Assembly: GCA_021733945.1 (NCBI GenBank)
Contig: JAIPJX010000006.1
Location: 1 to 64,000 of the forward strand
DNA length: 64,000 nucleotides
Reading direction: 5' to 3'
From: Verrucomicrobiota bacterium
Lineage (GTDB): Bacteria > Verrucomicrobiota > Verrucomicrobiia > Limisphaerales > SIBE01
Below the pieces are notes generated by a model, which was not told where the DNA came from, did no database searches, and worked only from the letters and a program-made list of their open reading frames with translations. A program made the translations under genes and the position numbers. Of this stretch, positions 27,620 through 33,078 are shown piece by piece; within the stretch, counting starts at the first letter, position 1, and each line of letters starts with the position of its first letter.

Positions 27620-28158
27620 GTTTGACCCTGAACCTACGGATCGACCAAACCGCTGACAAGCGGGAATACCGGATCAATCGCCACGGGGAGGAATGAGGTC
27701 CTCCGAGTCCCGCTGCCAGTCGGCCAACGGATCCGGAGGGTGGGCGAAGCGTCCGCAGAGCCGCGGGTCATTGGAAGGCTGGAGTAGTCCGTTTGGAACG
27801 GATGTCTGCCTCGCGGCTCGAGCGGTGGATACGGAATCCGGATCGCCTCATTTTTTCACCGGAAGGTACGGGGAGGACCCTGTGGCTTTTTGCGGGAGCC
27901 TTCCAAAGCGGCGACGGGTTTGGGCGAACCAGGGGATTCGTGTCTGCCATTGGGATGCATTCCAGGGCATGGCGTCGGAAAAATCGATCGTGTTTTGGAG
28001 TGCGCCATTCTGTCTTGCACGTGGAATTCATTTCCGACTCACAAAAACCTTGCACGTTCGTCGAAACACCCCCTACGCTGCACTCCTCAGCGACACTTCG
28101 TTGTTTAATGTTAAATGAAGCGGGCTGTGTTCCGCTCCTCTCAATTGTACCCTTTTTG

Positions 28159-30408
28159 ATGAAAAAACTAATTCTGCTTTTGCTTGTTGGAACGATAGTG
28201 CTTGACGATCAATCGTCCCTGCTTCCCATCTCTTCAGTATCTGCCGCTCCGGTGAATCCGCGAATCTCCTCCTGGCTGACGGCACCCTCCGGGCAATACG
28301 CGCGGCTGTACCGCACGTATGCGGACGAACAGGCGGACACTGCCGTATCCGTCTGGAGCAATACAAACTATGCCCAGGAGCAACCCGCCTATGCGGGGGT
28401 GCAGAAGGTCAGTCACTCGGGCAACTTCGTGTATTTGCGCACCACCGGACTGGCCCTGGGCCACGTCATGGGCCCGTGGTATAACAACACCGGAGCCGGG
28501 GGCGCGCTTGAGGTGTTCGGCAACTGGCCCGAGGCGATTTACGGCGATTATCGGTTTCCTCTGCAACCCACGATTCCCTCCGTACGAACCCCGTTTCCCG
28601 GAGGTGCCATCGGTTTGATGGTCGACGGGACCGTGATCTTTTCCTCCAGCGATGCGTATTCCTGGGACAACAACGAGGATGGAACGGGCAACGGAAAAGA
28701 CACGCTGCCCGGCCCGCAAGCGGGCGGCTTCGGGGACGGCATCTGGAACCACGACGCCTACATCACCGAGAGCAACACCTTCGACAAGTCAAACTCACAC
28801 GCCGCCGGAAACCAGCTTCACTACCACGCCGCTCCGATGAAGCTCCGATTCCTCCTGGGCGACTCGGTTCAGGCCGTGCGGCAGGCCAACGGCGAGTTTC
28901 TTTATTCCGACAATTTCAACGGCACCCATTCGCCCATCCTCGGTTGGATGAACGACGGATACCCGCTTTACGGACCTTACGGTTTCAGCAATCCCGATGA
29001 TCCCACCAGCCCCGTTCGTCGCATGATCTCGGGCTTCATCGTGCGCGACGGCAGCAACGGCACCTACGACATTCCGTCCAGCGGACGCGTCCGACTTCCC
29101 GCCTGGATGGTCCGTTCGACCGGCCGCGGGCCGGACCTCACGGTGAATCAGAAGGGCCCCACCCATGCCGCGGTTCCGGTTCCCTATTTCATGGAGGACT
29201 ACGATTTCAAGGGGGACCTCCAGGGTTTCTCCCCTTACGACGGCACGGGAATCTTTGACGAGAACCGGCACTACGACATGAATGAATTCAACGTGCGATT
29301 CTGCAGGACTCCGGAGTTCCCGGACGGGACCTGGGCCTACTTCACCTGCATCGATGGCAGCGGGAATCCCACCTTCCCTTACAACGTCGGCCGCGATTAT
29401 TTTGGCGATCCGGCTCAGGGAGGCATCGTGAGGAACATCACCGAAGACCTGACCACCGATTTCGAAGGGGGACCGAATCTGCCGGTGATTCTCGAATCTC
29501 CCAGCGTCAACGGGGACACGGTCACCCTCACCTGGAACGGAGCGGAGGGCGGTTCGTACACCGTCGAATCGGCGGACGATCCTTCGGCCACCAGCTGGAC
29601 CGAGGTCGTCAGCGGGGTGATCACCACTTCGAACCAGGGCTCGGCAACCGATGCTTCCAGGGTGGGCGCACGGTTCTACCGGGTGACCCGAACCGCTCTC
29701 GCGGCTTATGACGCAGTGGGAAGCGCCAGTGGCGCCGGCGAGGGCGGCGGCCAGGGAGGAGGAGGCGGCGGTGGAGCGGGGGGAATCACGATCGGCCAGG
29801 TCACTCCAAACAGCGCCGACCCGGGGAGCACGGTCTCTGTCAGCATCACCCTTTCCGGTGCCATGCTTCCACCGGCCAACGTTGCTCCGACTGCCGTCTC
29901 CATCGGCTCGATTGCCGCCACGTCCATCACCTACGACGGTTCCGTGGTGACTGCCGTGTTCACCCTGCCGGAGGGCACCACCGGGGCTCAGGATCTGAGC
30001 GTTACCCTTCCTCCGCCGCCAAACTTACAGGACGCCGTGGTGATCACCTCGGCCGGAGCGTTCACCATCACCGGCACCCAGGGCGGAACCGGCGGGGGCG
30101 GGGGGGCCGGCATCAGCAGCGTTTCACCCCAGACCGGGACGCGCGGAACTTCGGTGACCCTTTCGATCGAACTGGATCCCGCGGCAACTCCTGCGGTGCC
30201 TCCGGCGAACGCGCCACTGCCTGCGGTGACGGTGGGAGCGATCAACGCCACCCAGGTCGCGCGCAACAACAATACGATCACCGCAACCCTGGTGATTCCG
30301 CCCAACGCGCCCATCGGCACGAAGGAGATTGTCGTGACCTTCGAACCCGCACCCGGGAAGGAGTCCGGTCCCAGCTACAAACTGGCCGGGGTTTTTCGGG
30401 TTGACTGA
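28159..30408 (+). CDS. Secreted YHYH-domain protein with Gly-rich linkers and IPT-like repeats
   Basis: Signal peptide MKKLILLLLVG; 'GNQLHYHAAPMKLRFLLGDSVQAV...GWMNDGYPLYGPYGF'; two GGGGGG linkers followed by related repeats. Confidence 0.8.
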   Translation: MKKLILLLLVGTIVLDDQSSLLPISSVSAAPVNPRISSWLTAPSGQYARLYRTYADEQADTAVSVWSNTNYAQEQPAYAGVQKVSHSGNFVYLRTTGLALGHVMGPWYNNTGAGGALEVFGNWPEAIYGDYRFPLQPTIPSVRTPFPGGAIGLMVDGTVIFSSSDAYSWDNNEDGTGNGKDTLPGPQAGGFGDGIWNHDAYITESNTFDKSNSHAAGNQLHYHAAPMKLRFLLGDSVQAVRQANGEFLYSDNFNGTHSPILGWMNDGYPLYGPYGFSNPDDPTSPVRRMISGFIVRDGSNGTYDIPSSGRVRLPAWMVRSTGRGPDLTVNQKGPTHAAVPVPYFMEDYDFKGDLQGFSPYDGTGIFDENRHYDMNEFNVRFCRTPEFPDGTWAYFTCIDGSGNPTFPYNVGRDYFGDPAQGGIVRNITEDLTTDFEGGPNLPVILESPSVNGDTVTLTWNGAEGGSYTVESADDPSATSWTEVVSGVITTSNQGSATDASRVGARFYRVTRTALAAYDAVGSASGAGEGGGQGGGGGGGAGGITIGQVTPNSADPGSTVSVSITLSGAMLPPANVAPTAVSIGSIAATSITYDGSVVTAVFTLPEGTTGAQDLSVTLPPPPNLQDAVVITSAGAFTITGTQGGTGGGGGAGISSVSPQTGTRGTSVTLSIELDPAATPAVPPANAPLPAVTVGAINATQVARNNNTITATLVIPPNAPIGTKEIVVTFEPAPGKESGPSYKLAGVFRVD

Positions 30409-30462: not shown

Positions 30463-32235
30463 ATGCGAATGAAGGCACCCTCCCGACTCCCGGCCCTGCT
30501 TGCGCTGCTGCTGGGGTGCGGGACGGTGCCCGCGGGAGAGTTGTCGTTCGTTTTCGAAACACGCCTGAACGACCGCCCATTGATTCTGGACGAATCAATG
30601 GGCACGAATGCGATCGGGCAGGTGGTTTCAGTCAGTCGCCTCGACTGGCTGCTTTCCGAAATCCAACTGCATTCGGAGGAGAACGGCTGGCTGGCAGCAA
30701 GCCGGGATTCGTTTTTTATCAGTGAAGGCAGGGGGCGAAACCGGTTCTCGATGACTGATGCTCCCGCCGGGCGATTCGACCGTCTTTCATTTCGCATCGG
30801 GTTGAATCCGGAAACCAACGCAGCCAATCCAGCAAGCCACGGTCCGGCGCATCCGCTCAACCCGGTTCTGAACGGATTGCACTGGAGCTGGCAGAACGGC
30901 TACGTATTCCTGGCGCTCGAAGGCAAATGGACGGACCCGGAAACATCGCGGTCCGGCGGGTACTCCTATCACCTGGGCAACGATCACATGCGGATGATCG
31001 TCGACCTGCCTCTCGAGTTGACACTGCCCACCGATCGACCCGTCAAACTCCGGCTCGATCTCGACACCGTGCTCGGCGGCCCGGCACCGATTGCCTTTGG
31101 CACGGACACCGCCTCGACCCACGGACGCAGGGGGGATCCGCTGGCAGACAAACTGCAGACCAACGCCGTGGCCGCCTTCAGCGTCGAATGGATCAACCGC
31201 ACCCCGGTCGAGCCAGACAGCAAACCGGCCGCATCCATCGTTCTGATCAACCCCCAGGCAACCCCATACCGGTTCACTTTCGGACGACAGTTTCCGCCAC
31301 CCCGCTTGCCCAGGGACAATCCACTGACTCGGGAAGGAGTGGCCCTGGGGCGGGAGTTGTTCCAAGAACCGCTGCTGTCGCTCACGGAAAACCAGTCGTG
31401 CGCCTCGTGCCATCAGCCCGCCGCGGGCTTCGTGGATCCGGGCAGGGCCTTCAGTCTCGGCGCTGAAGGATCGGCTGGAACGAGAAACACAATGCCGCTC
31501 TTCAACCTGGCCTGGAAGGAACGATTCTTCTGGGATGGCCGCGCCGCAACGCTCAGGGAACAGGTGCTGATGCCGATCCAGAATCCGATCGAAATGCACG
31601 AGACCCTGCCGCGTGCCGTGGCCAAACTTGAGTCGGCCGGTTATTCACCCCGGTTCAATGCGGCTTTCGATTCACCGGAAATCAACCCGGATCGGGTCGC
31701 CCGCGCGCTGGAGCAATTCGTGCTCACCATCATCAGTCAGGATTCCAGGTTTGATCGCGCCATGCGCGGCAAGGCGACACTGACCGAATTGGAGAAGAAG
31801 GGATTCCTGTTGTTCAACACCGAGTACGATCCACGGCGTGGACTTTACGGTGCCGATTGTTTTCACTGCCATGGAGGTCCGCTCTTCAGCAACAACGGGT
31901 TTGCCGACAATGGGCTCGACCAAACCTACCGGGACAGAGGGCTTGGCGGACATACCGGCCGCAAACAGGACGAGGGTCGTTTCGCAGTACCTTCCCTGAG
32001 GAATGTCGAACTCACCGCTCCGTACATGCACGACGGCCGCTTTCGCACCCTGGAAGAGGCGGTGGCCCACTACGGCGGAGGAGTGCGTCCGTCGCCATCG
32101 CTGGATCCAAACCTGGCGAAACATCCGGTCGGCGGAGTGCCCCTGCCACCGGCGCAGCAGCAGGCCCTGGTGGCATTTCTGAAAACGCTGACTGACGACC
32201 AGTTTCGCCCGGACACTGCAGACGGGCGCTTCTGA
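30463..32235 (+). CDS. MbnP-like copper-protein domain fused to MauG/MbnH-like di-heme peroxidase
   Basis: N-term 'LSFVFETRLNDRPLILDE...HWSWQNGYVFLALEGKW'; C-term 'NPLTREGVALGRELFQEPLLSLTENQSCASCHQPAAGFVDPGRAFSLG' and 'CFHCHGGPLFSNNGF'; CxxCH at 31399-31413 and 31858-31872. Confidence 0.85.
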   Translation: MRMKAPSRLPALLALLLGCGTVPAGELSFVFETRLNDRPLILDESMGTNAIGQVVSVSRLDWLLSEIQLHSEENGWLAASRDSFFISEGRGRNRFSMTDAPAGRFDRLSFRIGLNPETNAANPASHGPAHPLNPVLNGLHWSWQNGYVFLALEGKWTDPETSRSGGYSYHLGNDHMRMIVDLPLELTLPTDRPVKLRLDLDTVLGGPAPIAFGTDTASTHGRRGDPLADKLQTNAVAAFSVEWINRTPVEPDSKPAASIVLINPQATPYRFTFGRQFPPPRLPRDNPLTREGVALGRELFQEPLLSLTENQSCASCHQPAAGFVDPGRAFSLGAEGSAGTRNTMPLFNLAWKERFFWDGRAATLREQVLMPIQNPIEMHETLPRAVAKLESAGYSPRFNAAFDSPEINPDRVARALEQFVLTIISQDSRFDRAMRGKATLTELEKKGFLLFNTEYDPRRGLYGADCFHCHGGPLFSNNGFADNGLDQTYRDRGLGGHTGRKQDEGRFAVPSLRNVELTAPYMHDGRFRTLEEAVAHYGGGVRPSPSLDPNLAKHPVGGVPLPPAQQQALVAFLKTLTDDQFRPDTADGRF

Positions 32236-32640
32236 TCAATCCCAGCTCCAGAGTCGTGGGCCCATCCCACTGAAGTTTCGAGCGGATGTTTACCCCCCGA
32301 CAGGGGTGGGGGATGCGGAATCACCTCCATGTTCGCCCCAGAACGTATGGGGAGGACCCTGTTGTTTTTCGTTGGGAGCGTGCAAAGCGTCGACGCCGCT
32401 TTGGTCCTGCCCGAAGGGACAAACCCACTCACTCCCAATCAGGATCCCATTCCGTTCAAAGGCAAGCCATGAGGAACCTCGAAATCCTCAACGAGGACAT
32501 CTCCGCCCCTTAAACGAATGGCAGTGCGCTTCGCCCTGCCTCCTGGGAGCGGGGGAAGGTGGCGCGAACCGTCCCGGTGAGCGTTTCCAGGATTTGGACC
32601 TTGCAGGGGGGGCGGCTCAGCGGGACGCTTCGCCCTACCG

Positions 32641-32754
32641 CCATTAGTTTAAGCTATTCGGAGGGTAGGGCGAATCCGTCCCGGTGAGCCGACAAGCGGT
32701 TGAGCGGCTCAGCGAGGACGCTTCGCCCTACCATTTCAGTTCTTAAACTAATGG
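32641..32754. mobile_element. MITE-like element with perfect 13-bp TIRs CCATTAGTTTAAG / CTTAAACTAATGG
   Basis: TIRs at 32641-32653 and 32742-32754; second copy in opposite orientation at 53783-53906. Confidence 0.7.
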
Positions 32755-33078
32755 CAGTGCGCTTCGCCCTACCGCCATTCGTTTAAGAGGATTTGGAATG
32801 CGGGGGTGGTCCATTTGGAACGGATGCCTGCCTCGCGGCGGGAGCAGTGGATACCAAATCGGGATCGCCTCATTTTTTCATCGGAACATAAGGGAAAGAC
32901 CGGGTTGTTTAGGTATCGGCAAAGCGGCGTCGGTCGCAGCGCGAAAGACTCCACCCTCCACAGGGCGATGGGATTGATTTTTGCAGTTCGGATGGATTCC
33001 AAGGTTCAGACAAACCCGGGGCACCGCACCGAACAGTGGGGCTCGACGGCGCGGGATTGAAAGGATATTGAAGAGGCG

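Follow-up and report, generated by a model that had tools for sequence, protein, structure and literature searches.

Bacterial MbnP proteins and the di-heme enzymes that act on them are encoded at many loci by separate neighbouring genes, and one open reading frame of the window (the whole 64,000-nucleotide stretch of Verrucomicrobiota DNA analyzed here) appears to unite both in a single polypeptide. This raises the questions of whether the two halves are what they seem, how widely the arrangement is spread and whether the enzyme half could oxidize a tryptophan of its own chain. The features of the locus are listed in Table 1.

Domain composition of the fusion protein

The sequence-only reading had taken the first 230 or so residues for an MbnP-like domain and the remainder for a MauG/MbnH-like enzyme with two CxxCH motifs, and had suggested searching both halves against the corresponding Pfam families, each of which indeed matches above its cut-off. 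The MbnP model PF20243 covers residues 25-208, including the conserved region HWSWQNGYVFLALEGKW (residues 140-156), and its score of 95.2 bits against a gathering cut-off of 27 places this half in the MbnP family. The CCP_MauG model PF03150 matches residues 291-438 with 178 bits (E 2e-52, cut-off 25.6) and, together with the CxxCH motifs at residues 313-317 and 466-470, assigns the second half to the bCCP/MauG superfamily. At a narrower level, the best NCBIfam model is that of MbnH (TIGR04039), with 207 bits against an equivalog cut-off of 362.85, and MbnP_like_WxW (TIGR04052) reaches 33.7 bits against an equivalog cut-off of 140. Since both scores lie below these cut-offs, the protein is MbnP-like and MbnH-like in terms of family and does not qualify as a strict orthologue of its methanotroph counterparts; the model for TTQ-forming MauG (TIGR03791), with 166.7 bits against an equivalog cut-off of 443.85, does not claim it either. 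The fusion is the only MbnP of the source genome and one of its five genes with a CCP_MauG domain, and its N-terminal composition suggests that it would be exported to the periplasm or the outside.

Table 1. Features of the MbnP-MbnH locus, in coordinates of the window; residue numbers refer to the fusion protein.
Feature	Position	Strand	Remarks
YHYH-family (PF14240) secreted protein gene	28159..30408	+	Pfam E=6e-24; likely start ATG 28159, mechanical ORF from 27793
MbnP-MbnH fusion gene	30463..32235	+	590 aa; ATG 30463, stop 32233-32235; uninterrupted translation
Predicted N-terminal signal peptide, residues 1-24	30463..30534	+	Charged start, then LPALLALLLGCG; from composition only
MbnP domain (PF20243), residues 25-208	30535..31086	+	Pfam, E 6e-27, 95.2 bits
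WxW motif, W141-S-W143	30883..30891	+	W141 predicted kynurenine precursor; aligned with WxW of 7l6g
H170, predicted copper ligand	30970..30972	+	64/64 fused, 51/52 split; aligned with His of 7l6g
H220 of STHxR motif, candidate second copper ligand	31120..31122	+	65/65 fused, 28/52 split
Interdomain linker, about residues 243-271	31189..31275	+	Variable in alignment; low model confidence
MbnH/MauG-type di-heme domain, residues 272-582	31276..32208	+	PF03150 and 6e1c matches
First heme-binding motif, CASCH, 313-317	31399..31413	+	65/65 fused
W357, Q367, P371, E377	31531..31593	+	Correspond to MauG Trp93, Gln103, Pro107, Glu113, with identical spacing
Second heme-binding motif, CFHCH, 466-470	31858..31872	+	64/64 fused
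Y537, predicted Tyr ligand of six-coordinate heme	32071..32073	+	61/61 fused

Among solved structures, MbnH of M. trichosporium (6e1c) is the closest relative of the enzyme half both by sequence (phmmer, E 6.5e-41) and by fold (Foldseek, TM 0.78 on the target), with MauG/preMADH complexes matching as well. MauG is distinguished from bCCPs by Tyr-His ligation of its six-coordinate heme and by Trp93 between the hemes, and its pocket is lined by Gln103, Pro107 and a distal Glu (PMC6405878). At all of these positions the fusion is of the MauG/MbnH type rather than of the canonical bCCP type: Y537 aligns with the Met that serves canonical bCCPs as a ligand and with the Tyr of MbnH, W357 takes the inter-heme position, and it is accompanied by Q367, P371 and E377, all four being invariant in a first alignment of 12 proteins. 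The enzyme half hence carries the residues of the tryptophan-oxidizing type. Taken alone, these are no proof of Trp oxidation, because BthA, although it forms the bis-Fe(IV) state, functions as an H2O2 peroxidase (PMC6405878). This precedent, and membership of the CCP_MauG superfamily as such, would also suit an ordinary H2O2-detoxifying di-heme peroxidase equipped with an accessory copper-binding domain and devoid of Trp modification, but the presence of Y537 where canonical bCCPs have Met, the proximity of the enzyme half to MbnH and not to bCCPs, and its strict co-conservation with the WxW motif make this an unlikely account of the fusion.

For the substrate half, a profile built from 26 MbnP domains matches the solved MbnP 7l6g (E 7e-5), with the two WxW motifs aligned and H170 opposite a His, and a profile restricted to fused MbnP domains retrieves no PDB entry other than 7l6g (E 0.043) at E values up to 10. 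In the MbnP of Methylosinus trichosporium OB3b the first Trp of WxW is reportedly converted to kynurenine, and copper is said to be held by a His and a Met, with the kynurenine close by. The residue preceding WxW is Met in the OB3b protein and Leu139 in the fusion, so that the copper site may differ between the two. The region of the OB3b GCMS motif, where the alignment is loose, is occupied in the fusions by STHxR with its invariant H220; given this motif and Leu139, a copper site composed of two His and kynurenine, as in CorA, is a reasonable guess from sequence and analogy.

Distribution and origin of the fusion

If the earlier reading is taken to imply an isolated oddity, that view did not survive the survey of related genomes: in Verrucomicrobiota, MbnP is normally found as the fusion. 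Among 58 relatives, MbnP scores above the cut-off in 16, always in open frames of 463-731 aa, and those of the 16 that were examined combine the WxW motif and the hemes within one ORF. Across the phylum, 22 of 390 genomes have MbnP and every intact copy is fused, the exceptions being loci disrupted by an insertion sequence (L037) or a frameshift (L032 and L041). Within the order to which the window belongs, 97 of 292 genomes yield an MbnP match above the cut-off, almost always in fusion-length ORFs; of seven unusual loci that were inspected, the short ones are truncated by a contig end or a frameshift, and L134 is a full fusion except for a stop codon inside the MbnP match. A unique fusion can therefore be dismissed, since roughly one genome in three of the order has it. 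Free-standing MbnP genes were sought in the order and the phylum, and the short-ORF matches that were checked (L037, L128-L133) were rejected as contig ends, frameshifts or insertion-sequence breaks; the search also returned a few weak partial matches (e.g. G045 and G625).

The named collection gives a similar picture. Wherever one of its Verrucomicrobiota loci includes the gene start, the gene is fused, and its Bacteroidota, Phycisphaerales and Sumerlaeota loci have the two genes separate and adjacent, in a collection that was chosen by similarity to the fusion and thus does not exclude fusions elsewhere. Taken over all samples, the MbnP genes of Bacteroidota, Planctomycetota, Proteobacteria and Sumerlaeota are separate neighbours of the di-heme gene. 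Split loci usually present mbnP followed by the di-heme gene, in some cases in the same frame and with one stop codon between them, and the gene order is identical in split and fused forms at nearly all sampled loci. The pair is also split in plasmid records, which label the two genes as MbnP family and as MbnH or cytochrome c peroxidase. Judging by the intact loci checked in detail, the fusion is the standard form of MbnP in Verrucomicrobiota, and its architecture represents a variant of the known MbnP/MbnH system that extends across the clade. No published description of an MbnP-MbnH fusion was found in the searchable literature, whose reach did not extend to the JBC 2019 and PNAS 2021 papers on MbnP/MbnH.

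In total, the fusion recurs in 65 ORFs of other genomes and loci, closed single-contig genomes included. Frameshifts or insertion sequences disrupt a few loci (L032, L037, L070, L128), as might be expected of an assembly artefact or of a stop codon lost in a decaying gene; we attach practically no credence to such an origin, which is refuted by the 65 fused ORFs, several of them in closed genomes, and by the invariance of their active-site residues. At L037 and L070, part of the MbnP-MbnH gene is interrupted or supplanted by transposase-like sequences. An apparent triple fusion of MbnP, MbnH and YHYH at L063 was discarded, its ORF crossing a run of X (unsequenced bases). Finally, at loci of Bacteroidota and Phycisphaerales (L064, L075, L078, L079, L081, L084 and L111), MbnP often precedes two consecutive genes for different di-heme enzymes.

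With regard to origin, the tree of the di-heme domain gathers all 61 fused sequences in one clade (SH-aLRT 97), together with L070, which has lost the 5' part of its gene to a transposase fragment, and with the split pair of Sumerlaeota L074. Constraining the fused sequences and L070 to a single clade yields a better tree, which the AU test does not reject (p 0.88), and the tree of the MbnP domain requires two changes. A single fusion event is the simplest reading; it would have joined neighbouring mbnP and mbnH genes at the base of Verrucomicrobiota or close to it.

Residue conservation, structure model and proposed modification in cis

The single-chain fusion recognized in the initial reading holds, and it contains both a complete MauG-type active site and a modifiable WxW Trp, a combination that makes modification in cis plausible. 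Conservation was assessed in 65 aligned fused reading frames, with counts limited to the proteins that cover each position. Wherever they are covered, W141, E153, H170, H220, D225, both CxxCH motifs, R341, W351, W357, E377 and Y537 are invariant. W141 is found in 64/64 fused proteins and is nearly invariant in the split relatives as well, and W143 is found in 62/64, the two others having Pro. Among the 65 aligned sequences no fused protein was found that retains the enzyme and lacks the substrate Trp, or the reverse, and such joint retention is what would be expected if substrate and enzyme act on each other. The fusion architecture, as judged from these alignments, is under clear constraint at the protein level.

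An AlphaFold2 model of residues 25-590, computed in the absence of hemes from 62 sequences that mix fused and split rows, has a mean pLDDT of 94.1 and a pTM of 0.92, the weak stretches being the C-terminus and the linker around residues 245-264 (pLDDT 76-78). A pTM of 0.92 is hard to reach without confident placement of the domains; the model thus supports docking in cis and implies a defined arrangement of the two domains. Together with the invariance of the residues, it strengthens the case for cis modification. The linker, variable in sequence and modelled with lower confidence, might alternatively be cut after export to release free MbnP and MbnH as a classical pair, the fusion serving only to ensure equal amounts of both, and the shared gene order of split and fused forms would agree with such a polyprotein. 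We consider this improbable, since the linker alignment reveals no conserved cleavage motif and the pTM suggests a docked arrangement.

Self-modification in cis, with conversion of Trp141 to kynurenine and binding of copper by H170 and H220, appears the most likely mechanism on the grounds of sequence and model. In the mechanism that we propose, the single chain would be exported by the Sec pathway and then receive its two c-type hemes, after which the C-terminal domain would react with H2O2 (or another oxidant) to reach a bis-Fe(IV)-like state. From this state it would convert Trp141 of the MbnP domain to kynurenine by long-range electron transfer, in its own chain or in the partner chain of a homodimer. 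A single copper ion would next be bound by the modified domain, most likely at His170, with His220 and the kynurenine close to it. In this form the protein would take part in copper acquisition or buffering in the periplasm or at the cell surface, together with the adjacent YHYH protein. To this overall reading, an exported single-chain MbnP-MbnH that oxidizes Trp141, binds copper and handles it with YHYH, we assign a probability of roughly 0.6. The identities of the domains, the conserved motifs, the architecture, its phylogenetic spread and the association with YHYH are established directly; kynurenine formation, action in cis, copper binding, the ligands and the physiological role are elements that we infer for the fusion.

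Genomic context and relation to known systems

Directly upstream of the fusion, at a distance of 54 bases, lies the YHYH gene. Where Verrucomicrobiota loci include enough flanking sequence, the fusion mostly has a YHYH gene next to it (e.g. at L045, L049, L066 and L067), as does the split pair of Sumerlaeota L074, and a profile search found none beside the MbnP/MbnH pairs of Bacteroidota. YHYH is encoded in 48 of the 390 phylum genomes, namely in 22/22 of those with MbnP as opposed to 26/368 of those without, a co-occurrence with a Fisher p of 6e-23 when genomes are treated as independent despite their shared ancestry. The YHYH-family gene is therefore a conserved partner of the fusion. The family has strongly conserved motifs (HxH, HSPI.GW and DG.P.YGPYG) with invariant His and Trp residues, and the AlphaFold2 model of the YHYH protein has a pLDDT of 42. 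At L045 two YHYH genes are found in a row.

It could be argued from this adjacency at most fused loci, from the presence of YHYH in all 22 MbnP-bearing genomes of the phylum and from its invariant His and Trp that the di-heme domain acts mainly on another protein, such as the YHYH neighbour, and that MbnP is a docking or copper-sensing module. There is little to recommend this option, given that MbnP is a known substrate family of MbnH and that W141 is invariant; moreover, YHYH is absent by profile from split Bacteroidota loci with MbnP/MbnH, and numerous YHYH genes belong to genomes that lack MbnP.

In agreement with the initial reading, methanobactin biosynthesis is not in evidence here: the neighbours of the pair are YHYH, lgt/rluD-like and esterase genes, and neither mbnB, mbnC, mbnM nor mbnA was found near the fusion, according to Pfam matches and the positions of the nearest flanking genes. 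The neighbourhood contains no copper transporter or regulator, which speaks against the proposed reading. In line with it, the source genome encodes cytochrome c assembly proteins. The light chain (small subunit) of MADH was not found in it by a search run without a positive control. Elsewhere in the source genome (L135, contig C25:11500-18000) a gene for DUF692, the MbnB/TglH/ChrH family, overlaps a partner that is DUF2063-like, a label derived from reading its sequence. This pair, which lies apart from the window, is not a recognizable methanobactin operon and might possibly represent a RiPP or copper-peptide locus. Within the window, dispersed copies of a non-coding repeat, about 100-120 bp long, occur at 27780-27900, 32275-32379 and 32803-32901, on both sides of the YHYH-fusion gene pair, and the repeat has 37 matches in the genome; an Rfam scan of the region that includes it returned nothing. 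Short intergenic repeats of the CGCTTCGCCCTACCGCCATTAGTTTAAG type, both direct and inverted and REP-like in appearance, cluster at 32506-32790.

If the cis mechanism is true, the enzyme oxidizes a Trp of its own chain and one gene replaces a transient two-protein complex, so that long-range radical transfer and assembly of the copper site could be traced at a fixed 1:1 stoichiometry. Kynurenine copper sites would extend beyond methanotrophs into a widespread and little-studied phylum, and YHYH proteins would be indicated as functional partners. Somewhat against the odds, one may go further and conjecture a phylum-wide set of self-maturing copper proteins, with a two-His/kynurenine site nearer to that of CorA/MopE than to that of OB3b MbnP and with YHYH as an unrecognized copper-handling partner.

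Several known systems lend themselves to comparison. The MbnP-MbnH pair of OB3b (7l6g and 6e1c) has in common with the fusion both domain families, WxW, one His, the Tyr-ligated di-heme enzyme and the mbnP-mbnH order, but it consists of two proteins, whereas the window encodes one chain with no methanobactin genes beside it; the OB3b MbnP also differs in its Met before WxW, in place of Leu, and in a C-terminal region of the four-Cys type with GCMS instead of STHxR. The closest sampled split relatives of the fusion are Sumerlaeota L074 and the MbnP and cytochrome c peroxidase pairs of Bacteroidota (e.g. Chondrinema litorale NZ_CP111054; loci L064-L122). The latter have both domains, usually adjacent and in the same order, but in two ORFs, often without H220 and with no YHYH neighbour by profile. 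In the CorA/CorB and MopE/SACCP systems of methanotrophs, a Cu(I) site of kynurenine and two His is accompanied by an adjoining CCP-like di-heme protein, the presumed modifier (PMC3912023), the proteins being separate, unlike those of the fusion. Finally, MauG of the methylamine dehydrogenase system shares with the fusion its fold, the Tyr ligand, the inter-heme Trp and the distal-pocket Gln, Pro and Glu, but it acts in trans on preMADH to generate tryptophan tryptophylquinone, whereas the substrate proposed for the fusion is a Trp of its own chain.
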